Positions 1 to 45,469 of a stretch of DNA of 64,000 nt are shown here, in pieces. This stretch comes from Bolinopsis microptera. Taxonomy: Eukaryota; Ctenophora; Tentaculata; Lobata; Bolinopsidae. Positions within the stretch are counted from its first letter, which is position 1. Every line of letters starts with the position of its first letter. The stretch spans positions 16,018,419 to 16,082,418 of the forward strand of contig NC_087076.1 in assembly GCF_026151205.1 (NCBI RefSeq), given 5' to 3'. The notes under the pieces were generated by a model. It was not told the origin of the DNA and ran no database searches. It was given only the letters and a program-made list of their open reading frames with translations. The position numbers were made by a program, and so were the translations under genes.

Positions 1-276
1 CTCTTACTTGCACTATCAGTGGACTGTCCCAAAATACTCCGATTACATGGATAGGACCTGACAACAACGAAATTTCTGAATCCGACACCAGCGACTATGT
101 GATTAATCAAGAAACATTTGTGTTTTCTAGCAAGGCCTCCACCTTGACTATAACGCCATCGGTTCTTGAATCTCTTCCCTCTACCTCTGTCTACAAATGT
201 AAACTCAAGTCCGCTGCTTATCCTGACTTTTCACCTGAAGTTGTGAACGAGATGACCCTTACTATATTGGAACTCG
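1..276 (+). CDS. Ig exon 1, type B, partial
   Basis: The window opens inside the exon, two codons before the first disulfide Cys (codon 9-11). The core W and the second Cys in YKCKLKS follow. The donor is gtaaaa after a phase 1 G. Confidence 0.85.
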
Positions 277-3200
277 GTAAAAATCATTAAAAGATGTGTT
301 AGATAACCTTACAGTTGATCTCATAGTTATCAGGCAGTCTTTAATTCGTTTTAAAAGAGGGTGTTTCCCATGATTGTATTTTTGCCCAAAAGTCATATCT
401 GCCCTTTTAACAATGATATAACACATCTCCTCTAAAGGTGTTGAGCCTACCAACAAAGAGGTGGAAAGTGGAACAGATACTACAGTTTCATGTTTCATTT
501 CGGGTATCACCCGACAACTTGACGCTGTTGTTTGGAGAAAGGACGGCACCGATGTAACGACTTTGTCAGGAAGCAACTATGTTGTATCTGCAGGGCCTTA
601 TGGTTCCAACTCTCAAACTACAACACTTACTGTAAAAGCTGCTGCTAATACAGCTGATTCCACTTTTACGTGTGCCATCACTTCTAACGAACACCTAGAG
701 ACCAATAAAGAAACCTTTGTTACTTTGAACGTGTTTGGTAAGACATCTTATTGTATCAGATTAGTAGAAGCAATTAATTGTATAATTCTATCGAGTTTAT
801 AACAAATAACACCTTGGCTTAGTTTCGTGCCCAACGATCACTCCGGTGAAGCGTCGGGAATTATTGCGCTTAGCACTCAACAACCAAGGAATTATTTTAT
901 TATATTTACAACAAGCCATGCATGTTTCAGCCTTCCAACTCTTTTTCATAGTAGTGAATATTGTTCGTTATGATTATTATACTATTACTTATCATTTTCA
1001 TGCTATTACAGATGCGTCGTTGGATGACCGAACAGTTGTGCCTGCCACGGATCAGACTATCATATGTTCGGTGTCTGGGTTATCACAGAACACACCTGTA
1101 ACATGGATTGGTCCTGATGATAACGAGATATCAGAGTCTGACTCAAACAACTACTTGATCAGTCAAGGCAGTTTTATTTTCGGAAGCAAAGCTGCCACTC
1201 TGACCATAAAAGCAGCTAAGATGAGTTCCCTGACGTCTGGAGCAGTTTTCAAATGTAAACTGAGGTCGTCTCTTTATCCAACTCATTCGCCTGATGTAGT
1301 AAAAGAAATGGAACTTTCTTTTTATACCCTAGGTATACAGACTTTTTAAATGTACTTCCAATTTGTATGTTGATAAGAATTCGATTACTACCATTTGAAT
1401 ATGATTTTAGGATAATTTTGAATCTTTGATTTGACACGTTTATTCCACTTTTCTCACAACACTCATGATGGTAAATACTTAACCTGTTCTTATCTAAATT
1501 GCTTTTTCAGCGGTTCAAACTGTAAACAAGGAAGTACAATCTGGAGCTGATGCAACCATATCTTGTGTCATCACTGGTATTACCAAAAACCTGGACTCGG
1601 TCATCTGGAGGAAATCTGGTACCGATGTAACAACTTTGTCAGGAAGCAACTACGTTGTATCTGCAGGGACTTACGGTTCCAACTCTCAAACTACAACACT
1701 TACAGTAAAGGCTGCTGCTAATACTGCTGACTCTACCTACACTTGTGCTATCACATCTGATGAGTGGCTGGAAACAAATAAAGAAACCACCTGTGATATT
1801 AAACGTGTTTTGTGAGTCGAACTTTTGATTCAAGACATATATTTTCTAATGGCAAAAATAATTTGTAGCAAAAACAATTAATACTGCTGATACTGATATT
1901 ATTACATTATTTTCAGCCGTTACTTTTGAAGATAAGGTTGTCACCACTACGTCCGATCAAAATCTTATCTGCACGATCAGTGGGTTAGCACAGAACACCC
2001 CTGTAACTGGATTGGACCTGACAACAACGAGATATCTGACTCTGACACCAACAACTATGTTGTTGATCAAGGCACATATATTTTCGGAAGCAAGACATCA
2101 ACACTCACCATCAAAACAGCCAAGTTTGCCTCTCTATCTTCAGGAGATGTGTTCAAATGTAAACTGAAGTCTGCTCTCTATCCTACTGACTCCCCGGAGG
2201 TGGTGAATGAAATGACTCTGACTCTCCTTGAGCTAGGTATGACCTCGATAGCTTCGTCGATCAAATATCCTCCATAAAGCTTTATTTCTCCCTGGCTCAA
2301 TGGTTTCCTCTTTTGAAGTTTTTCCTTAATTTGGTGTGGCTGTATTCTCCGATCTATGTATCAATATCTATGATTTCGGGATTAGAAAGTATCATATGAC
2401 TTCTTATGTGTTTACTAACCCAGCAATGTTTTCTTGTTCTTTGTAGTTTTCTCGATTTCCGAATAACGATACATTTCTAATAGGACTACCTGCTGCATTT
2501 AATATTTTTACTTGTTTTCAGTTGTTCAACCAATCAACAAAGAAATCGAATCTGCGACTGAATCTACCATTTCTTGTGTAATATCTGGTATCACCCGACA
2601 ATTGGACGCTGTTGTTTGGAGAAAGGATGGCACAGATGTAACAACTTTGTCAGGAAGCAACTATGTCGTATCAGCAGGAACTTACGGTTCCAACTCTCAA
2701 ACTACAACACTTACCGTAAAGCTGCTGCTAATACAGCTGACTCTACCTACACTTGTGCTATCACATCTGATGAGTGGCTTGTCACTGATAGGCAGACTGG
2801 TGTTTTCCTGAATGTGTTTGGTGAGTATTTGTATTATATCACTATATCATATAGACCATTTAGCTATGTAGGTTCCATTTGATTCAAACGATTATTATCT
2901 TTTGCGTATCTTAATTGCATACTGATTTTTGCATACTTTTTGCATCTTAAATATCTGTAAGTGGGAAATTATCGGCGTTGCTCAATTATAGTGATTGACA
3001 CTCTAGACTACATGATCACTCGTTTATATTCATAATTATTCTTCAGTTGTTTCATTTGATGACAGATCCGTCTCTACTGGGGTTGATCAAACAATATCTT
3101 GTGTAATTTCGGGGTTATCACAAAACACTCCCGTAACTTGGATAGATCCTGATGGCAATGACATATCCAACACCGACACCGACAATTATGTCATCAACCA

Positions 3201-6200
3201 AGGCAACTTCTTCGCCGGCACAAAGACCGCTTCTCTAACTATCAAGCCAACTGTGTTGCAGACTCTTGAAACAACCTCAGTTTATTTGTGTAAAGTAAAG
3301 TCCGGATTTTATCCCGACTTTTCTCCCGATGTTGTAAACGAAATGACTCTTACTCTGCTGGAACTAGGTAAGTGGAATCAATAAAATTAATTATTAATAA
3401 TTAATTATTAATTAAATCTCTGTTCGACATAATCGTCCAATATTCAGCTCCCTTGCCCCTTTGTGTTTTATATTGTACTGGGTCAGGAGATTTTAGGGAA
3501 CTACTATCCACTGTCATTTGACTGGGCTAAGGTTAAGATAAAACCAATAAACCACGTACAAATTAGTTTGAAGATCAATGTTTGTTCTGGGTAAATGAAA
3601 TGGTTTTTTTTTTCAGCTGTTTCACCCATCAACAAAGAAGTGGAGAAAGGAACTGATGTAACAATATCATGCGTCATCACTGGTATCACTCAACAATTGG
3701 ATGCTGTTGTTTGGAGAAAAGATGGAACCGATGTTACATCTTTGCCAGGAAGCAACTACGTTGTATCTGCAGGAACTTACGGTTCCAACTCTCAAACTAC
3801 AACACTTACTGTAAAAGCTGCTGCTAATACAGCTGATTCAGCATACACTTGTGCTATCACATCTAATGAATATCAAGAAATCAATAAAGAAACCTCGGTG
3901 GTACTAGATGTGTTTGGTAAGACTTTAAGACTTGTTTCCCTCTGAGATAATTTCATGACGTTGTAAAATATTCTGGAACTATAAGTGATATTCAATCAAG
4001 GTCACCTTTATAAAGATTGTTATTCAAGTACTATCGATGTAAAATAACACTTTGTCAAGCTTAGATAGTCGTTAAAAAGTAATCCATTTTCCTTTTCAGT
4101 TATCTTCTTGGACGATAGATCAGTTTCCACGGCAACAGATCAAACCCTCTCCTGTCTGATATCCGAACTATCCCAAAACACTCCCGTTACCTGGATCGAC
4201 CCCAACGGTAACGAGATATCTGAATCTGATACTGTCAACTATGTTGTGGATCAGGGGACTTATATCTTCGGAAGCAAGTCCGCTACATTAACCATTACGA
4301 CAGCAATGATGGCAGGCCTTACATCAGGGGATATGTTTAAGTGTACACTTAGGTCTGCTCGCTATCCGGATAATTCACCTGATGTTGCAAACAGATGGTT
4401 CTTACTATTCTCAGTCTAGGTAATGAGTTTCAGCTTTTACACCCTGTTTAAATGTATTATATGATGCTTTAGAATGGAATTGAGTTGGGCCATAAGTTTG
4501 GGAAATGGAGAACAAAATTGTCACTATACCCGTTACTTAATTTTGGACGTTTTTAAAATGTACTCTACTAATAATATTATCTGTCAGAGGTTCGCCCTGT
4601 TAGCAAAGAAGTCGAATCTGGAACTGATGTCACCATCTCTTGTGTAATTTCTGGTATCACCCAACAACTTGACGCTGTTGTCTGGAGGAAAAGTGGAACC
4701 GATGTTACGACCTTGTCAGGAAGCAACTATGCAGTATCTGCAGGAACTTACGGTTCCAACTCTCAAACTACAACACTTGCAGTAAAAGCTGTTGCTAATA
4801 CCGCTGACACAACCTACACTTGTGCTATTGCATCTGACGAATGGCTTGTGTCAAATCAGCAGACGGACGTTGCACTTGATGTCTTCTGTAAGATTTTAAC
4901 TGAAATTCTTTCGTAGAAGTTTTCATATTATTTAATTCGGATAACCTGAAACCATTTTGCCTGAAATAAAATTTAATACTTCATATAATGCTAGAACACC
5001 AACAATTTGATTAATATTTACCCTCGAATTTCAGCTGTTGTATTGGAGGACAGAGCCGTTTCAACTGCTACAGATCAGCTACTGACCTGCACTATCAGTG
5101 GTTTAGCGCAGAACTCACCTGTAACTTGGATTGGACCTGACGACAACGAAATATCAGACTCTGACACCAACAACTATGTTGTTGATCAAGGCACTTATAT
5201 CTTTGGAAGCAAGGCGTCAACATTGACCATCAAGACAGCAAAGTTTGCTTCTCTACCTTCAGGAGATGTGTTCAAATGTAAACTGAAGTCTGCTCTCTAT
5301 CCTACTGACTCCCCGGAGGTGGTGAATGAGATGACTCTGACTTTACTGACTTTAGGTAAAAATGGGTAGCAGATGAAAATGTTTTCGATTGAATATATGA
5401 AGGCTTTCCTTGAGTCAGGACGGTGTTTATTGGATAGATTACACTTAATTTTGTACATAAATTTAATACGATTGTTAATCGTCAGTATAAATATAATTCT
5501 TTAGATGTAAAACCAACAAACAAGGAGGTTGAAACGAGAACAGACGCAACTATTTCGTGTGTTATCACCGGTATCACTCGACAACTTGATGCTGTTGTTT
5601 GGAGAAAGGATGGAACCGATGTTACATCTTTGTCAGGAAGCAACTATGTTGTATCTGCAGGGACTTACGGTTCCAACTCTCAAACTACAACACTTACTGT
5701 AAAAGCTGCTGCTAATATAGCTGACTCAACCTACACTTGTGCTATCACATCTGATGAGTGGCTACTGGCTAATAAAGACACCACTATATCATTGGAAGTT
5801 TTCTGTAAGTCATATAATCTTCCAATCCAAATCTTATATTACACTATTGATTTATCCCACTTAAAATTGCGCAGGTTTGAATTTAAAAGCAAGAAATGTT
5901 CAGTTTTAAATTTCTAACAGCTCTTAATTAAAACAATTACAGCGGTATCCTTCGAAGAGAACAGGTCCATCACAACTGCCACAGCTCAAACACTCACATG
6001 TGGGATCAGTGGGCTAGCAGCAGTAACTGGTGTCACTTGGATCGGTCCCGACAATAATGAAATATCAGACTCTGACACCAACAACTATGTTATTGATCAG
6101 GGAACATTCGTTTTTGGAAGCAAAGCTTCAACACTCACCATCAAGACTGCAAAGCTTGCTTTCATATCATCTGGAGATGTGTTCAAATGTAAACTAAAAT

Positions 6201-9200: not shown

Positions 9201-12200
9201 ACGTTGAAGCTACAAACAAGGAGGTGGAAGTGGGTACAGATGAAACTATTTCCTGTGTTATCACTGGCATTACCAAACAACTGGACTCGGTCGTTTGGAG
9301 AAAGGACGGCACCGATGTAACGACTTTGTCAGGAAGCAACTATGTTGTTTCCGCAGGGACGTACGGTTCCAACTCTCAAACTACAGAGCTAACTGTAAAG
9401 GCTGCTGCTAATACAGCTGACTCAACCTACACTTGTGCTTTCACATCCGACGAATGGCTACAGACAAACAAGGAAACTAATGTCATTCTAAACACATACT
9501 GTAAGCTCAATTTTTTCTCATTCGTATGCTATACAATCGATCTCAATAAATTTATTTATCTAAAAAATCTACGATTTTTCAAGATTCAATTTTCTTATTT
9601 AAAAAATGAATTGAGCAGATCATAAATCGGTCAATTGTAAAAGTTGAATATTTTCAGCTGTCATCGTTAAAGACGTAACAGATGGTGTTAAAACAGACCA
9701 GACTCTGACATGCACGGTATCTGGATTATCACAAAACACACCGGTATTCTGGGTAGATCCTGATAATAATCAAGTAGACAACTTTGATACTGAAAACTAC
9801 GTCATCGATCAAGGAACGTACGTGCTCGGAAACAAGGTCGCGACTCTGACCATCAAAGAAGCTAAAGTTGTGACACTAGGCTCCAGCTCTGTGTTCAGAT
9901 GCAGACTAAAGTCGGCTATTTTCCCTACGTACTCACCAGATGTTGTTAAGGAGATCAGCTTCAGCTTTTTGGGCTTAGGTAAGGCACAGATGGTGAAAAT
10001 GATAAAAGAATCACTATATGTGTGGTGACATAATATGTTTCAAATTTATAATAATAGTTGGACATTGTACCATGGGCAGGGCTTGAGGATGAAACATACT
10101 TATCAAGGGAAAAAATCGCTCTCTAAGATAACGTTGAACTCAAATCTTCTTGCAGTTATATTAATCACAATTGTTTTACTAACAACAATCCTTTCCAGTT
10201 ATCCAGCCAACAAACATTGAAGTTGAGCAAGGCACAGATGCTACAATATCTTGTATTGCTTCTGGAATCAGTCAAGGGTTGGATAAGGTTGTTTGGACGA
10301 AATCTGGCACCGACGTAACGACTTTATCAGGAAGCAACTATGTTGTATCAACGGGGACTTACGGATCCAACTCTCAAACTACAACACTTACTGTAAAGGC
10401 TGCTGCTAATACAGCTGACTCAATATTTACATGTGTTATCACTTCAAACGAGCACCAGGAGACTAATAAAGAGACTGCTGTTAGTCTCGATGTCTTTTGT
10501 AAGTTCACTTTGACGATTCCTATAATATAACTATGTCTATCCCATTAGAATTCAGAAAGAATCACACAATTCATTTTCTTACTGTAAATAGTTTAAGTCA
10601 ATTTTAACTAGTTTTCCTACTCTAAAATGAAAGTTTTACCAACTTTTGCAGCTGTTGTGTTCGAGGACAGGACAACGGCTGTTGGGGCTGCAACAACCAT
10701 CACGTGCACCGTTATTGGACTATCTGAAAACACTCCTGTTACTTGGATTGATCCATCTAACAATGAGATATCCGGGACAGACACCAGCAACTATTTTATA
10801 GATCAAGGACATTTATATTCGGTAGCAAAGCATCCACTCTCAAGATATTTGAATCCAAGTTACAGAATCTGCCCTCATCATCGATCTTCAAGTGTAAACT
10901 GAAATCTGCACGTTATCCAACGCACTCACCTGATGTGGTGAAGGAAATGACTCTTACCGCCTTTGGTCTAAGTATGTGTATTTTTCTTTATTCTAGTGAA
11001 AACAAAAATTAAAAACAAATCCATCTACCAATATAATTTGATTCCAATACTGTAGAAGTCCTTCATTCGTGCCTTTAACTAAATTATCATTTCGCTCAGG
11101 TGTACAAGCGGTTAACAAGGAAGTCCTGACTGCAACTGATGCAACCATTTCTTGTGTTATTTCTGGAATTACTCAAAAACTGGACGCTGTTGCTTGGAGA
11201 AAAGATGGAATCGATGTTACAACATTCTCCGGAAGCAACTTTGTTGTATCTGCAGGAACTTACGGTTCCAACTCTCAAACTACAACACTTACTGTAAAAG
11301 CTGCTGCTAATACTGCTGACTCCACCTACACTTGTGCTATCACATCTGATGAGCATCAGGAGACAGACAAGGCAACTTTGGTGACATTGAAAGTGTTCTG
11401 TAAGTAAAGCACAAGTCGGTCAAAATTAATGTATGAACTACTCTCATTGATAAGTATTTTTTGTGTCTCGTTTTTCCCTGAAATTAAAAACTTAATTCAA
11501 TTTTTTGCAGCTGTTGTTTTCGAGGACAAGGCAGTCATTACCGCAACCGACCAAACTCTGGTATGTACAATTAGTGGATTGTCACAGTACACTCCTGTTA
11601 CTTGGATCGGACCAGACAACAACGAGATATCAGACTCTGACACCAACAACTATGTCATTGATCAAGGCAACTATATTTTTGAGAGTGTAGCGACAACCCT
11701 GACCATCAAGACCGCCAAGTTTGCTTCCCTAAAATCAGGAGATGTGTTCAAATGTAAACTGAAGTCTGCTCGTTATCCTTCTGACTCCCCGGAGGTGGTG
11801 AAGGAGATGACTTTGACCTTACTGTCTCTAGGTAAAATATAATGATATTCCACGTATTGAAATTGCATAGTCCTTGTGAAATGTTTTTAGTAAGACTTTG
11901 ATTATCATTCATCTGTTCCACAGAAAATTATAATTGTTGTAAAAGCTTTATACAGTCATCTACTAACCTATTGCAATTTACCAGATATTGAACCTACCAA
12001 CAAAGAAGTGGAAAGTGGTACAGATGCTACAGTTTCATGTGTTATTTCTGGTATCACCCGACAACTTGACGCTGTTATTTGGAGGAAGGATGGTACTGAT
12101 GTTACAACTATTACAACTGGAAGCAACTACTTTGTATCGCCAGGAACTTACGGTTTCAATTCTCAAACTACAACACTTGTTGTAAAGGCTGCTGCTAACA

Positions 12201-15200
12201 CAGCTGACTCAACCTACACTTGTGATATCACATCAGACGAGTGGCTTGTAACCTCTCGGCAGACAAATGTGGTCTTAAATGTTTTCGGTAAGAATTTCCG
12301 TTCACTTCTGTAAACTTAATGAATAAAAGAATAAAGAGATTCGTCAAGGCTCCATCGTTCCTATTGTAACAATTTCTTTAACAACATGATATTTGCAGCT
12401 GTTGAACTTGTAGACAGATCTGTGGCAACTGGAGTTGACCAATCTCTAACATGCACTATTAGTGGATTGTCACAGGACACCCCTGTTACTTGGATAGATC
12501 CTGATAACAATGAAATATCCAATTCTGACACCAACAACTATGTGATTGATCAGGGAACCTATGTATTTGGAAGCAAATCTTCGACTCTTACCATCAAGCA
12601 ATCCCAATTACAAAGTCTGCCATCATCATCAATTTTCAAGTGTAAACTGACATCCGCTCGTTATCCAACGTACTCACCTGATGTGTTGAAGGAAATGACT
12701 CTTACACTCATCGGCCTAAGTATGTTTGTTTTTCGAATTGACTTCTTCTGTTACTTCTATAATAAGTATAACATATTTTTATATTCATTAACATCAACAT
12801 CTCGGCCGTTCTAGTCTAATTTAAAATTTTGCTCAGGTGTGCAACCGGTAAACAAAGAAGTCCTTACTACAACGGATGCAACTATTTCTTGTGTTATTTC
12901 TGGAATCACCCAAAAACTGGATGCAGTTGTCTGGAGGAAGGATGGTACCGATGTTATGACCTTGTCTGGAAGCAACTATGTTGTATCTGCAGGAACTTAC
13001 GGTTCCAACTCTCAAACTACAACACTTAGTGTTAAAGCTGCTGCTAATACAGCTGACTCAACATACACTTGCGTCATAACATCAAATGAGCACCAGGAGA
13101 TAAATAAACCGACTACCGTCAGGCTTAATGTCTTTTGTAAGTTATCTTGTGATTTTAAGCAGGGCAGTTTATTTTGTATGGTTTTAGGAACGTTTTTTGT
13201 TGACTAGCAATTGAGGAATATAAACTTAACTGAATTCAATTCATCAGCTATTACACTTGACGACAAAGTAGCTACGACTGCAACTGATCAAGATCTTTCC
13301 TGTACGATAAGTGGTTTAGCGCAGAACTCCCCTGTAACTTGGATTGGACCTGACAACAACGAAATATCAGACTCTGACACCAACAACTATGTTGTTGATC
13401 AAGGAACATATATTTTCGGAAGCAAGGCATCAACTCTGACCATCAAAACAGCCAAGTTCCCTTCTCTTTCTTCAGGAGATGTGTTCAAATGCAAACTCAA
13501 GTCTGCTCTCTATCCTAATGACTCCCCGGTTGCGATGAAAGAAATGGTTCTTACTCTGCTAACTCTAGGTAACAAAATCATTCCATTGATATTCTTGATA
13601 TTAATGTCCAATAAGAGTTAAATTCGAAGTTTAACAAATCCGTGTCCCTCAATTTGCATGAATTTATTCGCAAAATTTAAAGTTCTATCAAAATAAATCC
13701 AGGGCAAATTACAAATCATTTAAATTGATTAATCATTAAATCGTTTAAATGATCTTTTATTTTTAGTACAAGAAATTTCATTTAAAAAAAATTATTTATC
13801 AGAGATTGAACTTACCAACAAAGAGGTGGAAAGTGGTACAGATACTACAATTTCATGTGTTATTTCTGGTATCACCCGACAACTTGACGCTGTTGTTTGG
13901 AGAAAGGACGGAACAGATGTAACGACTTTGTCAGGAAGCAACTATGTTGTATCTGCAGGGACTTACGGTTCCAACTCTCAAACTACAACACTTACTGTAA
14001 AGGCTGCTGCTGTTACTTCTGACTCAACATACGCCTGTGCTATCACATCTGATGAGTGGCTTGAGACCAACAAGCAGACTAATTTGATCTTGAATGTATT
14101 CGGTAAGGATTTGTCAGTTTTTTGATAAGTTTAATGTTGCAAATGTTTATATTTTATTGATTCGAATTTAAATAATCAATGATTTCTCCTTCATTCTCCT
14201 CGTTAACAGCCATTTGACGTCAACATATTTTCAGCTGTTGAATTTGTAGACAGAACTGTGGCTACTGGAGTTGACCAATCTCTGACATGCACTATTAGTG
14301 GATTGTCACAGGACACCCCTGTTACCTGGATAGATCCTGATAACAATGAAATATCCAATACTGACACCAACAACTATGATATTGACCAAGGAAATTTTAT
14401 ATTTGGAAGCAAAGCATCAACACTAACCATCAAGCAATCCAAATTACAAAATTTACCCTCATCATCAATCTTCAAGTGTACATTGAAATCCTCTCGTTAT
14501 CCAACGTATTCACCTGAAGTGGAAAAGGAAATGACTCTTACATTCATCAGCCTAAGTATACATATTTTTATTCCGCCTTCTTTCGTTAATTGTCTTTCGT
14601 TTCTAAAATAATTTGATTTTATGAGCATCAACTTTTATGTAAAATGTTAAAAAGAATTTATGACCTTCACGTTTTAATTCATTTTTCCCCAGACGTACAA
14701 CCGGTTAACAAGGAAGTCCTTACTGCCACTGATGCCACTATCTCTTGTGTGATTACCGGCATCACCCAGCAACTTGACGCTGTTGTTTGGAGAAAGGATG
14801 GAACCGATGTAACATCTTTGTCAGGAAGCAACTATGTTGTATCCGCAGGGACTTATGGTTCCATCTCTCAAACTACAACACTTAGTGTTAAAGCAGCTGC
14901 TAATACAGCTGACTCAACTTATACATGTGTTATTACATCAAATGAGCACCAGGAGATAAATAAAGCGACTTCTGTGAAACTGAATGTGTTCTGTAAGTTT
15001 TATAAATTGTAATTAAGTCATCATACTGTGGATTAACTTTTTTACTTCTTTCTGAGTTTCTGTTCCTAATTCTCGTTATCTTGCAGTACAAGAATAGTAA
15101 CTATACTACAATTTTTCAGCTGTTGCTCTTGAAGACAAAGTAGCCACGACCGCAACCGATCAAAATATTATCTGCACGATCAGTGGGATATCACAAAACA

Positions 15201-18200
15201 CCCCTGTTACTTGGATAGGACCTGATAACAACGAAATATCAGGAACTGACATCAACAACTATGTCATTGATCAAGGCACTTATATATTTGGAAGCAAGGC
15301 GTCAACTTTGACTATCAAGACAGCCAAGTTCGCTTCTCTATCTTCAGGAGATGTGTTCAAATGTAAACTGAAGTCTTCTTTCTATCCAAATGACTCTCCA
15401 GATGTTGTGAAAGAAATGGTTCTCACTCTGCTTACTCTTGGTATAGTTATTCAATATACAGATTATTAAGGAGCTTTTAATATTAAATGTAATGATGCCA
15501 TGAAAATACGCCAAGTGTGATTGTTCAGAAGCAATAACAAAAACATTTTGAACCTTTTGGGTTCTTGTTCTTGTACATTTACATTCGAAACTCAAAGAGC
15601 TTTGAAACCGTTATTTTTCATTTAGCTTATTGGCTTAGTGTTATGTTATAGAATCATATTGTTCTGCTTCATTCTTTTAACATTAATTGATAAAGAGAAA
15701 ATCGTTAATTAGTTAATACTAATGACTAAATACACAATATAATAATATCATCATCAACAGATATTGAACCAACAAACAAAGAGGTGGAAAGCGGAACAGA
15801 TGCTACAGTTTCATGTGTTATTTCTGGTATCAACCAACAACTTGATACAGTTGTCTGGAGAAAGGATGGAGCCGATGTAACAACTTTGTCAGGAAGCAAC
15901 TATGTTGTCTCTGCAGGAAGTTACGATTCCACTTCCATCTCGCAGACCACCACACTCACTGTAAAGGCTGCTGCTAATACAGCTGACTCTACCTACACTT
16001 GTCTTATCACTTCCAACGAGTGGCTTGTAACCAATCAGCAGACAAATGTTCTCTTGGACGTATTCGGTATGGATTTACCGTGTACTTTTGTAAATTTTAG
16101 TTTTTACTGTTTATTGTAGCCGATTTAATATTTCAAGGATTTTATTAAAGATCCGGTTTTGAACTACCTTTTAATTTCTTGGTATTTTCAGCTGTTGAAC
16201 TGGTAGACAGAACTGTGGCTTCTGGAATTGACCAATCTCTGACATGCACTATTAGTGGATTGTCACAGGACACCCCTGTTACCTGGATAGATCCTGATAA
16301 CAATGAAATATCCAACACTGACACCAACAACTACGTGATTGACCAGGGAACTTACGTCTTCGAAAGCAAAGCATCGACTCTCGTGATCAAACAGTCTAAA
16401 TTAGAAAATCTGTTCTCACCATCAATCTTCAAGTGTAAACTGAAATCAGCTCGTTATCCAACGTACTCACCTGATGTGGTGAAGGAAATGACTCTAACAC
16501 TGATTGGCCTAAGTATGAATATTACGATATTGTATTCATCTTAATCTATTCTTCTTTTCTATGATAATACAAATTAACTTTTGAATTGAATAATTGAAAA
16601 GATTTTTCATTAATATTATTATAATTGATCATTTCGCTCAGGTATACAACCGGTAAACAAGGAAGTCCTCACTGCAACAGAAGCCACCATCTCTTGTGTC
16701 ATTACTGGAATTACACAAAAACTGGACGCTGTTGCTTGGGGAATAGATGGCACTGATGTTACAACATTCTCCGGAAACAATTATGTTGTATCTGCAGGAA
16801 CTTACGGTTCCAACTCTCAAACTACAACTCTCACCGTGAAAGCAGCTGCTAATACAGCTGACTCAACATATACATGTGTTATTACTTCAAACGAGCATCA
16901 GGAGATAAATAAACCGACTGTCGTGACACTGAATGTATTTTGTAAGTTGTTTTTCTTTATATCGCAATTGCGACATAAGGTTGTGGAATTTCAATATATT
17001 TCTTTTTCTTTCTTCTTTTTTATTCATTTTAATTTCCAAGTCATTGTTGAAGCAATAAAAAGTAATTCAATTCTATTTTCAGCTGTTGTACTTGACGACA
17101 AATCTGTCACTACTGCAACCGACCAAAATTTGGTGTGTACGATCAGTGGATTATCACAGAACTCCCCTGTAAATTGGATTGGACCTGACAACAACGAGAT
17201 ATCAGACTCTGACACCAACAACTATGTCATTGATCAAGGCACTTATATATTTGGAAGCAAAGCGTCAACTTTAACCATCAAGACCGCCAAGTTTGCTTCT
17301 TTATCTTCAGAAGATGTGTTCAAATGTAAACTGAAATCTTCTTTCTATCCAAATGAATCCCCGGAGGTGTTGAAGGAGATGGTTCTCACTCTGCTGACTC
17401 TAGGTAACAAATCATTCCATTGATATGGTACTATGAAAATTGATGTCTTAATTCAAATTCAATATGAATCTCATCTTTAACAAATTAACAAAATGATGTC
17501 ATTGAATCATAACCCCTAGATTTGAAGTTAATTGTTGCCTTGATATATTTTTCGTCAGATATTGAACCTACCAACAAAGAGGTGGAAACTGGAACAGATG
17601 CTACAATTTCATGTGTCATTTCTGGTATCACCCAACAACTTGACACTGTTGTTTGGAGAAAGGATGGAACCGATGTAACATCTTTGTCAGGAAACAGTTA
17701 TGTTGTTTTTGCAGGAACTTATGGTTCCAACTCTCAAACTACAACACTTACTGTAAAGCCTGTTGCTAACAAAGCTGACTCAACCTACACTTGTGCTATC
17801 ACATCCAATGAGTGGCTTGTAACTAATCAGCAGACCAATGTGCTCTTAAATGTATTTGGTAAGGATTTGTCGGTTTACCGATTACTCTTGTAAACGTTCA
17901 TTGTTTAAGATATAGTTGATGTAATGAATTCACATTTTTCTTCTTCGTTACTTTTCAGAACAGTTATCTAACTTAATCGTATTTTCAGCTGTTGACTTTG
18001 TAGACAGAACTGTTGCTACTGGAGTTGACCAATCTCTGACATGCACTATTAGTGGATTGTCGCAGGACACCCCTGTTACCTGGATAGATCCTGACAATAA
18101 CGAAATATCCAATAGTGACACCAATAACTATGCGATTGATCAGGGAACTTTTATATTTGGAAGCAAGGCATCAACACTCACCATCAAGCAATCAAAATTA

Positions 18201-21200
18201 CAGAATCTTCCATCATCATCGATCTTCAAGTGTGAACTAAAATCCACTAGTTATCCAACGTATTCACCAGAAGTGGTGAAGGAAATGACTCTCACACTAA
18301 TCGGCCTAAGTAAGTAATATTGATGATGTCTTTTGTGATAATCAGCTGGTTCTTCTATAATAATTTGTAACTTTTAATCGTATATTAAAATGAAATTTTG
18401 TTTCCCGTTCTTATCAATTATATCGCTCAGGTGTACAACCAGTTAACAAGGAAATCCTTACTGCCACTGATGCAACCATTTCTTGTGTTATTACCGGCAT
18501 CACTCAACAATTAGATGCTGTTGTTTGGAGAAAATCTGGTACCGACGTTACAACATTCTCCGGAAGCAACTATGTTGTATCTGCAGGAACTTATGGTTCC
18601 AACTCTCAAACTACAACAGTCACTGTAAAGGCCGCTGCTAATACAGTGGATTCAACATATACGTGTGCTATCACTTCAAATGAGCATCAAGAAGTCAATA
18701 AAGCGACTGTTGTGACACTGAATGTCTTTTGTAAGTTGTTTTAACCGTGATTACTTCATTAATCTGTTTATATCAATTTAAAAATTTGTTTACTTTTGGT
18801 CTTATTGTAAGCTCTCGGTATCCAAAATAAAAGGAACAATAAGCTTAATAGAATTCGTTCCCCCAGCTGTTGCATTTGACGATAAAGCTATCTCGACTGC
18901 AACCGACCAAAATTTGGTGTGTACGATCAGTGGACTATCACAAAACTCCCCTGTAACTTGGATTGGTCCTGATAACAACGAAATATCAGACTCTGACACC
19001 AACAACTATGTTGTTGATCAAGGCACATATATTTTCGGGAGCAAGGCATCAACTCTGACCATAAAAACAGCCAAGTTTGCTTCTCTATCTTCAGGAGATG
19101 TGTTCAAATGTAAACTGAAATCTTCTTTCTATCCTACTGACTCCCCGGAGGTGGTGAATGAGATGGTTCTAACTCTGCTGACTCTAGGTAACAAATCATT
19201 CCATTAAAATGCCATTTATAATTCATATGCTATATTTATAATTCATATGCTATATTTATTTAATTCATTAATTCCGGTTATATTGTTATTTTAAGCGAAT
19301 ATATATGTGCCATGAATCAGTATCCCTGCAGCTTTCAAGTTAAAATAATGATACAATTCAACAGATATTGAGCCTACCAACAAAGAAGTGGAAAGTGGTA
19401 CAGATGCTACAGTTTCATGTTTCATTTCCGGTATCACCCAACAACTTGACGCTGTTGTTTGGAGAAAGGATGGAACCGATGTAACATCTTTGTCAGGAAG
19501 CAACTATGTTGTATCTGCAGGGACTTACGGTTCCAACTCTCAAACTACAATACTCACTGTAAAGGCTGCTGTTAATACAGCTGACTCAACATACACTTGT
19601 TTCATCGCTTCCAGCGAGTGGCTTGTTACCAACAGGCAGACAAATGTGCTCGTAAATGTGTTCGGTAAGGATTTCTCCGTTTAATACTGTAGATGATTAT
19701 TATTTAATGTTAATGTTGATTCATGGATTCCTCCTTCATTTTTCTATTTCACGGAAACTTACATGATCATATTTTCAGCTGTTGACTTTGTAGACAGAAC
19801 TGTGGCAACTGGAGTTGATCAATCTCTAACATGCACTATTAGTGGATTGTCGCAGGACACCCCTGTTACCTGGATAGATCCTGACAATAACGAAATATCC
19901 AATAGTGACACCAATAACTATGCGATTGATCAGGGAACTTTTATATTTGGAAGCAAAGCCTCAACCCTGACTATCAAGCAATCTAAATTGGAGAATCTGC
20001 CCTCATCATCGATCTTCACGTGTAAACTGAAATCTGCTCTTTATCCAACGTATTCCCCAGAAGTGGTGAAGGAAATGACTCTAACACTCATCGGACTAAG
20101 TATAAATATATTGATACTTAGTTTCTTACAACTGGCTGATATTTCTAAGATAATTTGATGTTCATAAGCAATTTTAAAAAGAAGTTTAATTTGCATTGTG
20201 TTCTAATCAGTTATTCTGCTCAGGTGTACAACCGGTTAACAAGGAAGTCCTCACTGCAACTGATGCAACCATTTCTTGTGTTATTTCTGGAATTACCCAA
20301 CAACTGGATGATGTTGTTTGGAGGAAAGATGGTACCGATGTTACATCTTTGTCAGGAAGCAACTATGTTGTATCTGCAGGGACTTACGGTTCCAACTCTC
20401 AAACTACAACACTTAGTGTTAAAGCTGTTGCTAATACAGCTGACTCTACCTACACTTGCGTCATAACATCTAATGAGCACCAGGAGATCAATAAACCGAC
20501 TTCTGTGAAACTGAATGTCTTCTGTAAGTTTTTTAGATCGTTATTACGTCATACGGCTGCAAAATTCAATTTTATTTCGTTTTTCTTCCTTCTCTCTTTC
20601 GATCATTTTTATGTCCCATTCTTATAATGTTAGAAAGAATAACAAGCTTAATTCATTCGAATTCTTAAGCTGTTGTTATTCAGAAGTGAAGTAATAAGAC
20701 ATCTAATTTGATTCAATTTCTCAGCTATTTTACTTGACGACAAATCTGTTTCAACTGCAACTGAACAAAATTTGGTGTGTACGATCAGTGGATTAGCACA
20801 GAACACCCCTGTTACTTGGATTGGACCTGAAAACAATGAATTATCAGACTCTGACATCAACAACTATGTTATTGATCAAGGCACTTATATCTTTGGAAGC
20901 AAGGCGTCAACATTGACCATCAAGACATCAAAGTTTGCTTCTCTATCTTCTGGAGATGTGTTCAAATGTAAACTCAAGTCTGCCCTCTATCCAAATGATT
21001 CTCCAGATGTTGTGAAAGAAATGGTTCTCACTCTGCTGACTCTAGGTAACAAATCATTGCATTCATACGCTAACATCATACTTGAAATTCGATTTGATTT
21101 TTATAGCTATGACTTAAATCTGTGGCCCTTCCGATTTGGATTTTTAATGGTTCTCTAAAATAATGATTTTCTTCAACAGATATTGAACCTACCAACAAAG

Positions 21201-24200
21201 AAGTGGAAAGCGGAACAGATACTACAGTTTCATGTGTTATTTCTGGTATCACCCGACAACTTGACGCTGTTGTTTGGAGAAAGGATGGAGCCGATGTAAC
21301 ATCTTTGTCAGGAAGCAACTATGTTGTATCTGCAGGAACTTACGGTTCCAACTCTCAAACTACAACACTTACTGTAAAAGCAGCTGTTAATACAGTAGAT
21401 TCAACATACACTTGTTTCATCGCTTCCAGCGAGTGGCTTGTTACCAACAGGCAGACAAATGTGCTCGTAAATGTGTTCGGTAAGGATTTCTCCGTTTACT
21501 ACTGTAGATAATTATTATTTAATGTAAATGTTGATTCATGGATTTCTCTTTCATTTTTCTATTTCGCGGAAACTTACATGATCATATTTTCAGCTGTTGA
21601 CTTTGTAGACAGAACTGTGGCAACTGGAATTGACCAATCTCTGACATGCACTATTAGTGGATTGTCGCAGAACACCCCTGTTACCTGGATAGATCCTGAC
21701 AATAACGAAATATCCAATAGTGACACCAATAACTACGCGATTGATCAGAGAACTTTTATATTTGGGAGCAAAGCCTCAACCCTGACTATCAAACAATCTA
21801 AATTGGAGAATCTGCCCTCATCATCGATCTTCACGTGTAAACTGAAATCTGCTCTTTATCCAACGTATTCCCCAGAAGTGGTAAAGGAAATGACCCTAAC
21901 ACTCATCGGTCTAAGTAAGCATATTTTCATGTAACCTTGTTAGTTGTTATGTTAATTGGCTTTTGTTTCAAAAATAATTTGATTTTTATGAGCAATAAGT
22001 TTCACCTTTTAATCTAATATTTTCTCCAGGTGTACAACCTATAAATAAGGAAGTCCTTACTGCCACTGATGCCACCATCTCTTGTGTTATTACCGGCATC
22101 ACCAAACAATTGGATGCTGTTGTTTGGAGAAAGGATGGAACCGATGTAACGTCTTTGTCTGGAAGCAACTATGTTGTGTCAGCAGGGACATACGGTTCCA
22201 ATTCTCAAACTACAACACTGACTGTAAAAGCTGCTGCTAATACAGTTGATTCAACTTATACATGTGTTATTACTTCAAATGAGAGTCAGGAGAAAAATAA
22301 ACCGACTGTCGTGAAACTAAATGTCTTTGGTAAGTTTTTCAGGTTTTGTTTCATTTTCCTCTTTGTTACAATTTTATTGGTCCCAGACCCTGCAGTCATC
22401 AATGAATAATAAGTTTAATCCAATTCTATTTCCAGCTGTTGCTCTTGACGATGAAGTTGTCACAACTGCAACCGACCAAAATTTGGTGTGCACGATCAGT
22501 GGATTGTCACAGGACACACCTGTTACTTGGATAGATCCTGATAACAACGAGATATCAGACTCTGACACCAACAACTATGTTGTTGATCAAGGCACTTATA
22601 TCTTTGGAAGCAAGGCGTCAACATTAACCATCAAGACAGCCAAGTTTGCTTCTCTATCTTCAGAAGATGTGTTCAAATGTAAACTGAAGTCTTCTTTCTA
22701 TCCAAATGACTCCCCAGATGTTGTGAAAGAAATGGTTCTCACTCTGCTTACTCTAGGTAGATATTTTCAATACATGTGTTTTAGATCGCTTTTTACAGAC
22801 AATCCGTTTCGCTTTTAATTTTATGTTTGATAAATTTGTACCCTTAAAAAATTGTCGAGGAAAAATTGCTCCTTAGTTTTGACGTTCACTCAATAACCGT
22901 AGCTTTTAATCTGAAGTAGAAGAATACCGTGCCAATACTATAAGTATTGACATCTCTTTAATCATAATCTAACAAATATACCACCGTCAGAGATTGAGCC
23001 TACCAACAAAGAAGTGGAGGGTGGAAAAGATACTACAGTTTCGTGTGTTATTTCTGGCATCACCCAACAGCTGGATGCAGTTGTCTGGAGGAAGGATGGT
23101 ACTGATGTTATGACCTTGTCAGGAAGCAACTATGTTGTCTCTGCAGGAACTTACGGTTCCAACTCTCAGACCACCACACTCACTGTAAAGGCTGCTGCTA
23201 ATACAGCTGACTCTACCTACACCTGTGCTATTACATCCAACGAGTGGCTTGTAACCAATCAGCAGACAAATGTTGTCTTGAATATATTCGGTAAGAATTT
23301 GTCGGTTTAATCTTGCAAATGTTTATTGTTCACTGTAGCTTGATTCATCCTTCGCTTACTATATTTTTTTGAAGCTAATTTGAGCTAATTTAACTTCCTC
23401 TCCTCCTCCCCTAATAACTTCACTCCCTACAATTCCATTCTACAAAGGGATGATGTTAAATCTTATCTCGACAGTCTTTCTTCTTCTTTTATTATTTGCT
23501 CCGTAGATAAAGCTTCAAATAATTATGTTTTTGTCTGCAAGAAGTTTTATCTTTTAACCCTTCTCAACGAACTTGGCTACGATCTCACTTCTCTAGAGTG
23601 TCGTGGCAATTCTACTTATCATCCGGTTAACTCTGTAGAGGATGATATTATTCAGGAACATGTGAACTTCATTAAAGATAACTTTAATATTCGTGTTTCT
23701 GAGGACAACCTTTGTCTACCGAGAATCTTTTGGATTCCTAAACTTCACAAGAATCCTTATAAGTCTAGATTTATAGCTGGGGCCAGTAAATGTACCACTA
23801 AGCAGATATCAGTTGTAGTCAACAAAGCTTTAAAAGTTTTAAAAGAATACTTTTCCAAATACTGCAACTCTATCTACAACAATACTGGAATTAACTGCGA
23901 CTGGAGCATTAACAGCTCTAAACAGTTCCTGGAAAGGCTGCCTAGACTAGAGATTTTTAATATGCAGGTATACGACTTTACCACTCTGTATACCAATCTA
24001 GACCTTCAGGTTGTACAGTCACTGCTTTTCGAGCTAATAGATCTCCTCTTTAGTAATACGAATAAATTTATTTGTGTTTCTCTGTATAAGAACAACAATT
24101 TTTTCTCTAAAAAGGAATATAACGGATACTTATGTTTTTCTGCTGATAAACTCAAAACAGCTATTACATTTATTCTGTTTAACACTTTTGTTTGTTTTGG

Positions 24201-27200
24201 GGATCAGATTTTAAGACAAACGAAAGGCATTCCCATGGGAGGGAATTCTAGTAGCCAGTTCGCTGATCTTTCGCTAGGGAAGTGTGAATTCAACTACATG
24301 ACACGCCTAATCAAAGAAAAGAAGTTCGGTCTCGCTAAGCTCCTCTCAAGAAACTGCAGATATGTCGACGACCTCAACACCATGAACTATTTGCATTTCT
24401 CTAACCTAATCAGGTCCATTTATCCACCTGACCTGCTTATGGAGAGGAGTGGTGACGACAATAAGTCCGTAAACTATCTCGACATCAACATCTCGATGAA
24501 TAACTCCGGACACGTCGCCACCAAGCTTTACAACAAACTTGATGACTTCAACTTTCCTGTGGTCATGTACACCTTTCCTAACAGTAATATTTCCTCTTCT
24601 GTTGGTTATAATGTTTTTTACGGTCAGGTCCTTCGTTACTCTTCCATTATCTCTGACCTTGATTCTTTTCTGTGTTCTACCAACACCCTTTATAGGACAC
24701 TTCTTTCAAGATGTTATAATGACAGACTCCTGAAGAGTAAATTCAGAAAGCTTCTGAAAGACCGACCTAGTATTCTGTACAAATACAGTATACTTGATGT
24801 CAGCGACATCCTTGACATCACATTTAACGTGAACAGGTGATCACTGACGAGTGATTGCTAGGGGGTCTTGGCACATTAAACCGGTACAGGTATTAAACCC
24901 CCGAAACCGGTGTGCCAAGTCATCTGCTGATGATGTTCACATAACATTATTTCCTCTCTCCTTTATTCCTTCCGTCTTTTCTTAAACTTACAGTTCAGTT
25001 ACTTTATTTCACCAGGTCTACCTAAGGATCAATTATTCTTTGGTGGGGTTTCACTTCTGGTATTGGCTTCATTCCCGCTCCTTTTCCTTATTCTTTATAC
25101 TTATTTTTTATATAGTTTAATGAGATTGATGAATTCATCGATTTCTCCCTGTGAACAGTCATTTGACGTCAATATATTTTCAGCTGTTGAACTTGTTGAT
25201 AGAACTGTGGCTACTGGAATTGATCAATCTCTGACATGCACTATTAGTGGATTGTCACAGGACACCCCTGTTACTTGGATAGATCCTGACAATAACGAAA
25301 TATCCAATAGTGACACCAACAACTATGTGATTGATCAGGGAACTTTTATATTCGGAAGCAAAGCATCGACTTTAAGCATCAAGAAATCTAAATTACAAAG
25401 TCTGCCCTCATCATCGATCTTCAAGTGTAAACTGAAATCAGCTCGTTATCCAACGTACTCACCTGATGTGGTGAAGGAAATGACTCTTACACTCATCGGC
25501 CTAAGTATGTATTTTGATGCTTGAATTTCTTTTAGCAATTGCTTCTGTCTCGAAAACTATTTGATGTTTATTATTCATTTGACAATGTGTTTCTGCCTTC
25601 ACATTCTAATTACTTATATCGTTCAGGTGTACAACCGGTTAACAAGGAAGTCCTCACTGCAACTGATGCAACTATTTCTTGTGTTATTTCTGGAATTACT
25701 CGACAACTGGATGATGTTGTTTGGAGGAAAGATGGTACTGATGTTACATCTTTGCCAGGAAGCAACTATGTTGTTTCTGCAGGGACTTACGGTTCCAACT
25801 CTCAGACTACAACACTTGGTGTTAAAGCAGCTGCTAATACAGCTGACTCAACTTATACATGTGTCATTACTTCAAATGAGAGTCAGGAGACAAATAAACC
25901 CACTATCGTCACACTGAATGTCTTTTGTAAGTTTGTCATGGTGAAATTACATTAATAATAGAGCAATATGGTTTGATATTATTTCTCCCCTGGCTTACCT
26001 TTTTGTTGCAAATTATTTTCCAGCAGTAACGAAATGATAGAATAGTCTAATTTGATTTCTCAGCTGTTTCACTTGACGATAAAGCTATCACAACTGCAAC
26101 CGATCAAGATCTTATCTGCACGATTAGTGGATTGTCAAAGAGCTCCCCTGTAACTTGGATAGATCCTGATAACAACGAAATATCAGACTCTGACAATAAC
26201 AACTATGTCATTGATCAAGGCACTTATATCTTTGGAAGCAAGGCGTCAACATTAACCATCAAGACAGCCAAGTTTGCTTCTCTATCTTCAGGAGATGTGT
26301 TCAAATGTAAACTCAAGTCTTCGTTCTATCCAAATGACTCCCCAGATGTTGTGAAAGAAATGGTTCTCACTCTGCTAACTCTAGGTTTGTACTTATTCGG
26401 TGTTCTATCATCGTTTTTGACAAACACAGAATCTGATTCGCTCTTATTCTTTACAAATTTGTACCCTTAAACTCTGTTCAAAGAACAATAGCCCCTTAAA
26501 TTTTAAGTTCATTCTGTAAAATTTTTGACGGTGTCAATTATAAATATTTAGATCTCTTTAATCTTAAAATTATTTCATCATCAGATATTGATCCTACCAA
26601 CAAAGAGGTGGAAAGTGGAACAGATACTACAATTTCATGCGTTATTTCTGGTATCACCCGACAATTGGATGCTGTTGTTTGGAGAAAGGATGGAACCGAT
26701 GTAACGTCTTTGTCAGGAAGCAACTATGTTGTTTCTGCAGGGAATTATGGTTCCAACTCTCAAACTACAACGCTTACTGTAAAGGCTGCTGCTAATACAG
26801 CTGACTCTACCTACACCTGTGCTATCACATCTGATGAGTGGCTTGTAACCAATCAGCCGACGAGTGTGGTCTCGAATGTGTTAGGTATGAGTTTTTTCCT
26901 GCACCCTGTCTATTTAAATGACAATTTCTTAAACAGTACAACTTTTACTCAGTTGGTGACATTTTCCCTTTATTGCACTTTCAAAAATTAAGAAAAGTTG
27001 TTAACCGCATGATAATTTCAGATGTTGAATTTGTTGATAGATCGGTGCCAACTGCAGCTGACCAATCTCTGACATGCACTATTAGTGGATTGTCACAGGA
27101 CACCCCTGTTACTTGGATAGATCCTGACAATAACGAAATATCCAATTCCGACACCAACAACTATGTGATTGACCAGGGAACCTATGTTTTCGGAAGCAAA

Positions 27201-30200
27201 TCATCGACTCTCGTGATCAAGCAATCTAAATTGGAGAATCTGCCATCATCATCGATCTTCAAGTGTAAACTGAAATCAGCTCGTTATCCAACATACTCAC
27301 CTGATGTGGTGAAGGAAATGACTCTTACTCTTGTTGGTCTAGGTACGTCCATTTTATTGTTGCCTTTTGTTCAGCAGGGACACCGTTTTTGAGAGCATAA
27401 GCGGTTGGGGATCTTACCTTGTTCACCGTTTTTGTTTCCTTCATAAGCTTTCCATAATTCAAGTCAGTCTTGTTTGGTTATTTATGTTTCGTTTCAACTA
27501 TTCATTATTTTGCTCAGGTGTACAACCAGTAAAGAAGGAAGTCCTCATTGCAACTGATGCAACCATCTCTTGCATCGTTACTGGCATCACCCGACAATTG
27601 GATGCTGTTGTTTGGAGGAAAGATGGAACTGATGTAACAACTTTGTCCGGAAGCAACTATGTTGTATCTGCAGGAACTTGGGGTTCCAACACTCAAACTA
27701 CAACACTCACTGTAAAGGCTGCTGCTAATACAGCTGACTCAACCTACACTTGTGCTATCACATGGCAGGAAGTCGGCAAAGAAACCATTGTGAACCTGAA
27801 CGTATTCTGTAAGAACAACTTTGCCCTTCCTAATGAATTTACCTTATTGGACGTTATTTGATCAGACACTAAAATGAACGCTAGCGTCCATTTAATGTCC
27901 GTTCAAATAAATTCCGATAAGGTATAATGGTATAGATTATAGAAACATCCGATCTAAAAAGTTGATTGATTGGTAATTTGATTGATTTATTTAACCTTAT
28001 AAAATGCTTTCTCTTCAGCGGTACTATTTGAAGACACGTCTGTTACTACAGCCACTGATCAAACTATAACCTGCTCTTTGAGTGGACTATCACAAAACAC
28101 TCCTGTAACTTGGATTGGACCTGACAACAACGAGATATCAAACACTGACACCAACAACTATGTCATTGATCAAGGATTTTATGTTTTTGGCTCCAAAGCA
28201 GCGACTCTTCTCATCAAGACAGCTAAACTAGCCACACTCTCATCTGATTCTGTGTACAAATGTAAAGTAAAGTCCTCCCAGTATCCTGAAAATTCTCCTA
28301 ATGTTGTTACACAAATCAGCCTGACGCTGCTTCAGTTCGGTAAGTAGTTGATTGCTGTAACCACAGTAACCACAGTAACCACAGTAACCACAATAACCAC
28401 AGTAACCACAGTAACCACAGTAACCACAGTAACCACAGTAACCACAGTAACCACAGTAATAAAGCCTTTTGGTTAGTTACTAATAATTCGTTATCCGAAA
28501 CTAAGAAAACATGGACTGACTTCGTTAATTCTTAACAGATATTGAAGCGAAAAACCAGGAGGTCGAAAAGGCAACCAACGCTATTCTGTCTTGCATTATC
28601 ACTGGAATAAGCCAACAACTAGACGCTGTTGTATGGAGAAAGGATGGCACCGATGTTACATCTTTGTCTGGAAGCAACTATGTTGTATCTACAGGAACTT
28701 ACAGTACTAACTCTCAAACTACAACACTCACAGTACCAGCTGCTGTTAATGCTGGTGACTCGACATACGCTTGTGTTATCACTTCTAACGAGTGGCTTGT
28801 CACCAATCAGCAGACATCTGTGTCTGCAACTGTATTCGGTAAGGGTGATTTCTTATGAATTGTCTCTAACTTTCAGCATACCTCAGTAAATTGTGCAGTG
28901 TACAGAGTGTTGGTTTATTCGCATGACTATAGTAGGTGCTTTGAAAGATAAAACCGGCGACTTTTAATATATTTCAAGCAGATTTCAAACAAAATCATCT
29001 CTCTCAGAGTTTACCGTGAACCCGACAGCGCAAGACTTGGTTGGCGGAGACAGTCTCTCCCTGTCCTGCAAGATATCTGGCAGCGCACAAGTGACAGTTA
29101 CCTGGCAGAAGGATGGAGTTGATATCAGCTCTGAGAACAGTATTTACAGCCAACAAGATATCTTCTCAGGGGGTGTCACTACCTCTATCCTCACCAGTGC
29201 TAATGCAGGCACCAGTTAGTTCCTTGCTTGTTAGGCTTAAACTTTGAGTATTACCGGCTACTTGCTAACTTGGTACTGCATGATGATATAAAATGAACCG
29301 GAAACTTTAGAACATTATCAAAGAATATTGTTAAAATTGTTAAATACTAAATCCTCCAGGTGTGATTGGTAGTTACCAATGTGTTGCCACGAAAGGAACA
29401 CTTTCTTTGACTTCGTCACCTGCTTCTGTCTCTGTGAAAGGTTATATATTGATATAACTCCATTAGTGCTGGGGCTTGGGGGTGTGCTCATCATTCAGTG
29501 ATTCTTATAAATTATCTTGTCCTCGGATTAATTCAATCGGATGCTGTCTTCGAATCTTTCACATCATTGAATATTAAATTTATTTCAGCTCTCGATTTCG
29601 TGAGTTCAGTGGCAGAGAGAGGAGAGGAGGTGACTTTGGAGTGCTTGTACACCGGACCTGACACCGTTACCAGTATGGTACTAGAGGTTCAGTCACAGGG
29701 TACATGGGTTCCTGTTCAGACCAACTCATTTGTCACCGCAGTTAATCAGTAAGTTTCTTATATTTTCTATTTTCTATTCAAATTGTTTTGACAAATTTTT
29801 GACTCGAGAAGTCCCACTTCATTCGGATTCATTCTTATTTCTTTATTCGAGAATGTGGCTTAAATTCAAAACAAAATTATAACCCATTGCTGCTAATTTG
29901 TGAGTCCTGCCTCATGTTAACAAAACTGCTAAACCTGCAACCAACCCCAGGTTGAGTACGTCCGGAGAAAAGCAATTTAGCTCTATCGTACTCACAGCTG
30001 ACAGAGCGGTGGAATACAAATGTACCGCGGAGTATGGTGGAAACACTTACGTGAAGACCGCTACTCTTACTGTTGTTGAAGGTAGCATACACTGACTCCA
30101 TAGTAATTAAGAGTTTGCGCTTTATTTTTCAAACTGTAAATTCAACATATTTTAATAATTCATACTCAATAATCGCCTCGTCCCAGTTGAGCCCGCTACC

Positions 30201-45415: not shown

Positions 45416-45469
45416 ATGAAGTGTTATTTTACCCTGTTGGTGGTATTTGTACTCATTGGATTCTGTCAG
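45416..45469 (+). CDS. Signal peptide exon of second gene
   Basis: ATG followed by a hydrophobic stretch (YFTLLVVFVLIGFCQ), 18 codons, ending in phase 0 at gtgggt. This is a typical first coding exon of a secreted protein. Confidence 0.82.

Follow-up and report, generated by a model that had tools for sequence, protein, structure and literature searches.

Two classes of immunoglobulin domain alternate through 111 consecutive exons in the genome of the ctenophore Bolinopsis microptera

We describe an uninterrupted array of 111 single-exon immunoglobulin (Ig) domains, belonging to two classes which alternate strictly, in the genome of the ctenophore Bolinopsis microptera. The starting point was a stretch of 64,000 nucleotides (C5:16018419-16082418, C5 being contig NC_087076.1), hereafter the window; all positions are given in window numbering, negative ones lying in the upstream flank. 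A first-pass annotation of the window had claimed 58 strictly alternating Ig exons, running on beyond its start, and both statements are borne out: up to position 28838 there are 58 single-exon Ig domains on the forward strand (1..28838), 29 of class A and 29 of class B with no break in the alternation, the first A exon starting 45 bases before the window. With the flanks included, the array comprises 55 A and 56 B exons in the order B-A-B-...-B, from -26386 to 28838 (55.2 kb), without a single exception. The annotation thus had only some half of the array in view. Here A denotes the 321-nt class and B the 300-nt class, the labels being swapped with respect to that annotation. The array is probably the central part of a giant extracellular ctenophore protein, a rod in the manner of titin or hemicentin, in which most probably all the domains are included.

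The exons were typed with two A and two B queries, after 58 kb of upstream sequence had been added. The best score of each exon with its own type was 85-218 bits, while cross-type scores were never above 50 bits; own-type scores being far above cross-type scores, the typing is clear. In a model where each exon lies between AG and GT, the length is 321 nt for 49 of the 55 A exons and 300 nt for 48 of the 56 B exons, and the modelled exons of the array sum to 34,473 nt. The phase 1-1 borders announced by the annotation were found in this model, which searched for exactly such borders. The exons join without any gap: the codon split at the joint encodes Ser or Ala in 39 of the 55 cases where an A follows a B, and Asp, Gly, Ser or Glu in 44 of the 55 where a B follows an A. 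The introns are mostly short (median 148 nt), and the G+C content of the window is 38.5% by base counts.

Both classes bear the hallmark of the Ig superfamily, two cysteines and a core tryptophan: C18, W31/32 and C81/78 are invariant in the 51 A and 52 B domains which were aligned, out of 72 and 78 respectively. Exactly two cysteines are present in 104 of the 106 modelled domains, a composition set which includes exons 15 and 57, discussed below for their indels. AlphaFold2 folds single domains of both classes confidently as Ig (pLDDT 93.8 for A and 93.5 for B), with Ig1 of NCAM, C1 of MyBP-C, titin Ig and PTP-delta Ig as solved structural neighbours. The two classes are homologous to each other (profile comparison probability 98%). 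Adjoining domains are 18-31% identical (mean 23.8%, n=94), compared to 69% for next-neighbours. The Pfam model Ig_3 recognises 47 of 52 B domains at E<=0.01, and the Pfam Ig models match 8 of 51 A domains, so that a survey of ctenophore immune genes based on Pfam would largely miss class A. Few domains have a sequon: 10 of 52 in class A and 3 of 54 in class B. On average A and B are both acidic, which rules out a charge complementarity between them.

The same two classes are found together elsewhere in the genome. Outside this array, A and B matches fall at some 24 places, spread over nine contigs other than C5 (C1, C2, C3, C4, C6, C7, C9, C10 and C11), a hand-clustered count which is a lower bound, drawn from the 150 of 507 and the 150 of 943 candidates that were scored. 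In the six other arrays which we read (C9b over 7 kb and C1a over 6 kb only), B and A alternate again, the apparent breaks in C4 and C7 being frame-broken domains which were split by the scan. Some of these sister arrays have long gaps between pairs, for example of 6.7 kb in C1b and of 3.9 kb in C9b. At one sister locus on C1, an A and a B are fused in one open frame (L028:6658-7425), hence A and B are neighbours in one chain there. In the C4 array a pair of 950 bp is repeated, with 25 of 27 copies identical, introns included; this identity may reflect assembly effects. In a tree of 56 of the 150 distinct domains collected, A and B form two groups with supports of 100 and 99, and the order of the arrays is largely mirrored between the groups, some forks being weak and the tool warning that two long stems (A and B) meet. 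The A and B distances of eight hand-chosen A/B units are correlated (Mantel r 0.837, with 51 of 40,320 permutations as high). These results support the view that the A/B pair is an old unit which spread to many loci. The annotation had suggested this pair as the structural and duplicating unit: its recurrence, the mirrored distances, the C4 repeat and the fused frame on C1 speak for an old unit, while the recent copies in the window array are blocks of four and six exons, not pairs. Aside from the arrays, a fragment at C2:6859082-6859252 is 79% identical over 57 residues to an A domain of C5, with no nearby A or B among the matches listed.

These blocks appear when same-type identity is set against the lag between exons. 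For exons 78-111 it is 0.82-0.85 at lags 4, 8, 12, 16, 20 and 24 and 0.70-0.71 at lags 2, 6, 10, 14, 18 and 22; the peaks at multiples of four reveal a four-exon super-repeat A-B-A'-B', which extends over 11511..28838 on the forward strand. For exons 1-77, lag 6 is the highest (0.753), followed by lag 12 (0.734). The closest relative of an exon lies at lag 2 in only one of the 111 cases. A single domain as the duplicating unit is ruled out by this lag pattern.

The similarity between copies is often confined to the exons. Among the 25 near-identical exon pairs (at least 0.895), 14 have neither 90-bp intron flank scoring above the best of 60 shuffles, counting the pair 51/57, which uses the indel exon 57. 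Exons 14 and 40, for instance, are 94.7% identical, and 96% identical at 50 four-fold sites, with no similarity in their 90-bp intron flanks. Only 15 of the 110 introns match another intron at 1e-8. Judged from such comparisons, this points to an exon-confined homogenisation, most simply a gene conversion limited by homology.

The domains are under purifying selection: the medians of the pairwise whole-domain dN/dS are 0.14-0.23, with a range of 0.04-0.40 in 1891 binned pairs, saturated pairs being dropped and exons 15 and 57 excluded. Such medians rule out a chance or low-complexity repeat and, since the alternation recurs in six other arrays, the array is not a product of chance. They also bear on two readings in which the array would serve recognition. 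One is a receptor array whose repeats diversify for immunity or allorecognition; Ig domains, many loci and a fast turnover of the array would suit it, but a pairwise whole-domain dN/dS which stays between 0.04 and 0.40, and copies which are homogenised rather than diversified, make it very improbable. The other is a pool of cassettes as in Dscam, where different cells would use different subsets of exons. In Dscam, tandem Ig exons have equal phase, as they have here; any subset of intact phase 1-1 exons would keep the frame, and indel exons could be skipped. However, the array differs from Dscam in its alternating classes and its purifying selection, with no evidence of exclusive choice (no search was aimed at intron elements for it), and the strict order of types and the intronless A-B open frame of the C1 sister locus also argue against such a pool, which we hold to be quite unlikely. 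The annotation had envisaged a multivalent protein or a pool for alternative inclusion; on sequence grounds, dN/dS values of at most 0.40, the nearly constant pair of cysteines and the short introns lend no support to alternative inclusion or to multivalent recognition.

That every exon is frame-neutral, as the annotation also stated, did not hold. In seven of the 111 exons, five of which belong to the 58 of the window, there is a net one-base indel with respect to their closest intact relative, a comparison which covered the seven odd-looking exons; the remaining 104 are open and of a length divisible by three. The five in the window, near 1.5, 1.9, 2.5, 4.1 and 10.7 kb, are three successive exons B, A and B (1511..2824) and two A exons (4100..4419 and 10652..10971), all on the forward strand. 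Exons 15 and 57 are given a frame-neutral length in the exon model by means of other splice sites, yet carry indels. According to the available part of its description, the published Bolinopsis assembly was made by wtdbg on PacBio reads, followed by gap closing and pilon; hence the indels may be assembly errors. One could then ascribe the copy number and the identity of the units altogether to assembly artefacts, for which the assembly method, the seven indels and the identical 950-bp units of C4 would speak. But the units of the window array are diverged, with a mean four-fold identity of 0.43 for A and 0.58 for B, so that the multiplication of a single repeat cannot explain it, and we regard an artefact as very improbable.

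What keeps the two classes in alternation? A and B are presumably too diverged to recombine with each other, and unequal crossing-over directed by homology would then shift the array by even numbers only. It follows that the alternation alone proves neither an A/B interface nor selection, and the step taken in the annotation, from strict alternation to a structural A/B unit, is not sufficient, as even-number crossing-over would also keep the order. The alternation would persist as A recombines only with A and B only with B, copies being made in even blocks, and conversion inside exons would homogenise like with like. Selection may act in the same direction. In the part of PMC4660218 available to us, the titin neighbours I27-I28, which are 24% identical, do not show the stable misfolding of I27-I27, both misfolding transiently; and a paper on the evolution of titin argues, in its accessible part, that the duplication of like neighbours is disfavoured (PMC12241362). 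Heterotypic neighbours would escape the stable misfolding which adjacent Ig domains are known to undergo when identical, and this would explain the amplification of a pair rather than of a single domain. An expansion which is recent, and even made of identical copies, can avoid like neighbours through alternation. Perhaps both misfolding avoidance and gene conversion have shaped the array. It makes the hypothesis of misfolding avoidance testable, by comparing A-A and A-B tandems.

We now return to the giant rod protein. Upstream of the array, an ATG at -55062 opens a signal-peptide-like exon of the array gene, after which come cysteine-rich, Ephrin_rec_like-looking and sushi-looking exons and Ig domains split between exons, all labelled by eye. 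The protein would thus begin with a signal peptide, followed by modules resembling Ephrin_rec_like and sushi, by Ig domains from split exons, by the 111 B-A Ig domains (about 11,500 residues) and by more Ig, Ephrin_rec_like and sushi modules. The Ig exons would be spliced consecutively, most probably all of them being included. An Ig domain is about 4 nm long, and the chain encoded by the array would span roughly 0.4 micrometre. Rather than recognising variable partners, it would provide length, elasticity or spacing, either at the cell surface or within the extracellular matrix.

Most of the giant poly-Ig proteins known so far belong to the muscle and matrix of bilaterians. CEACAM5 (carcinoembryonic antigen), a mammalian protein anchored by glycosylphosphatidylinositol (GPI), has alternating A and B Ig domains encoded by separate exons and amplified as pairs; it differs in having three A-B pairs, compared to 55 here. 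The middle Ig segment of titin likewise has one Ig per exon, of similar fold, with super-repeats of 6 and 10 Ig (PMC12241362, available part), and our array likewise strings single-exon Ig domains together over a long distance without interruption, with super-repeats of several domains. Titin works inside muscle cells, whereas the signal-peptide-like first exon and the sushi and Ephrin_rec_like modules point to an extracellular array protein; its two domain classes alternate strictly, it belongs to a ctenophore and its pair is found at many loci. No FN3, PEVK or kinase segment is among the Pfam matches of the exons tested, which were some exons only, with no search aimed at these segments. We know of no two-class alternation among the Ig domains of hemicentin. 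Hemicentin-1 is likewise giant and extracellular, and has over 40 Ig domains in tandem, as described in the part of PMC11841684 at our disposal; it differs by its VWFA, G2F and EGF modules (same source), none of which is among the Pfam matches of the exons tested (again some exons only).

Several points weigh against this interpretation. Full inclusion in one mRNA and a mechanical role are what we infer from the arrangement. The seven indel exons, if real, would need to be skipped. The absence of any A-A or B-B neighbours holds across the 111 exons, but the sister array on C7 has a B-B neighbour at its end, no A being found between. Similar intron flanks, on one or both sides, accompany 11 of the 25 near-identical pairs, and a fast turnover of introns could mimic a conversion confined to exons. 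The misfolding argument is not needed for the alternation, for which the mechanics of recombination suffice. Finally, the 3' end of the array gene is not fixed.

This last point calls for a description of the region downstream, all of it on the forward strand. From 29008 to 41248 the gene continues with diverged Ig domains, many of them encoded by two exons each, and with one Ephrin_rec_like module at 38587-38742, with borders from a script, tested in part against Pfam. A sushi-looking exon (by eye) and linker-domain exons follow (41592..42743); the array gene would have its 3' end here or, if there is one gene, its middle. A first exon resembling a signal peptide, with a donor in phase 0, stands at 45416..45469; it is the probable start of a phosphatase gene or an internal alternative start. 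Then come an exon with an RKKR segment, furin-like by eye, and Ephrin_rec_like and sushi exons (45590..46976), and further Ig-like exons, identified by script and by eye (47117..63811). These lead towards an exon beyond the window (88529-89836) which encodes a transmembrane (TM) segment, by hydropathy, and a protein tyrosine phosphatase (PTP) domain (PF00102, 1e-75). The layout is that of a receptor-type PTP (RPTP): an ectodomain, one TM segment and a cytoplasmic PTP domain, which is closest to PTP-sigma/LAR (PTP-sigma D1, 5.7e-66). As in LAR-type RPTPs, a gene with an Ig ectodomain, whether the neighbour of the array gene or the same gene, thus ends in TM and PTP; it differs from them in that one PTP domain was found, with sushi and Ephrin_rec_like modules and many more Ig domains. 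The catalytic HCX5R loop reads HCSAGAGW instead of HCSAGVGR, the P-loop Arg being replaced by Trp, which could be a one-base error.

Probably a second gene starts at 45416, to judge by the exons, and we favour two genes, the array gene and a phosphatase gene. The annotation had named transcripts from several separate genes as a possible refutation; such a division may well exist, downstream of the array only. In the alternative, a single gene would stretch over some 145 kb, from -55062 to about 89.8 kb, and encode a receptor which crosses the membrane once, with over 111 Ig domains and, in the cytoplasm, a tyrosine (pseudo)phosphatase domain, the 45416 exon being an internal alternative start for a short form; this would be compatible with the function of a rod. 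We consider it quite conceivable, if on balance doubtful. Ig, sushi and Ephrin_rec_like exons do run on the same strand to the TM-PTP exon, and the exons at 42651-42743 and at 45590, both of phase 0, are compatible. The module sushi-linker-Ephrin_rec_like-sushi-Ig recurs downstream, as seen by the exon-chaining script, with no comparable phase-0 signal-peptide exon there. At C9:3664-3680k (minus strand), PTP matches lie about 20 kb downstream of A/B matches on the same strand, but inspection by eye of the 60 kb downstream, on the strand concerned, showed none at the other 23 A/B places. Against one gene, the 45416 exon is the sole candidate of its quality for a signal peptide with a phase-0 donor in 144.8 kb on both strands, by a cut which the start of the array gene itself, with a hydrophobicity of 1.82, would fail, and an acceptor-like AG stands 36 nt upstream of it, as trans-splicing would require. 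The joined chain produced by the script contains 6 stops, split codons being unchecked; this script recovered 99 of the 111 array exons exactly, its other exons being unverified and some of them plainly false (nested genes, repeats). Alignment of the linker segments, as a guide to the gene boundary, gave scores no better than shuffles, which also speaks against one gene, and a search for paralogues matched the locus itself only.

A bolder picture, to which we give limited credence, is that of a titin-sized receptor: a single membrane protein of about 20,000 residues, with the 111 Ig domains, dozens of further domains and a tyrosine pseudophosphatase tail, belonging to a genome-wide A/B family with exon-only conversion and an order of unlike neighbours which protects the fold. 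If this were true, heterotypic order would be a general rule for the growth of very long Ig chains.

Long poly-Ig chains and super-repeats are known already; what appears to be new is an extracellular array of this length in a ctenophore, with two strictly alternating classes and a dispersed pair. A literature search made largely without subscription papers found, in the texts accessible to it, no description of ctenophore Ig arrays; PMC11797021 reports hundreds of I-set/V-set genes, and colloblast adhesion shows no link to the array in PMC6278862, both as far as their accessible parts go. Ctenophores have been proposed as the sister lineage to the other animals (PMC10232365, accessible part); the same paper speaks of PacBio Iso-Seq libraries from its species, which it does not specify. 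With 111 domains, and with a unit which several loci have amplified independently, the array offers a natural experiment on the growth of tandem Ig proteins.

Some further features were noticed. An array intron of 1.9 kb (23291..25183, forward strand) holds an open reading frame (ORF) at 23389-24837, outside the protein, which we take to be retroelement-like and reverse-transcriptase-like; a Pfam search gave no match for it. A second ORF, presumably of the same kind, lies within an intron at -29119 to -28142. Three minus-strand ORFs (31737-33701, 55922-57343 and 60909-61820) are probably nested genes: one is amine-oxidase-like by eye, one is BTB (Pfam, 9e-7) and one is hydrophobic without Pfam match. 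At -33770 to -32291, on the plus strand, a cysteine-rich, Ly6-like and possibly GPI-anchored gene (by eye) is apparently nested between Ig exons, and at 77555-82176, outside the window on the minus strand, three similar ORFs stand in a row between Ig-type exons. Elsewhere in the genome, a photoprotein query gave 61 matches on C1, C2, C3, C5, C9, C10 and C13, for example at C5:17012652-17026413 and C13:11082373-11094352; many of them are nearly the same in sequence and follow one another in tandem every 0.94 kb or so, and 51 of the 61 extend over at least 201 of 208 residues with 85-90% identity. Mnemiopsis has 10 full-length photoprotein genes in two clusters, according to the consulted part of PMC3570280. 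Lastly, 52154-52627 is a simple tandem repeat coding for KHGVNR-like frames.

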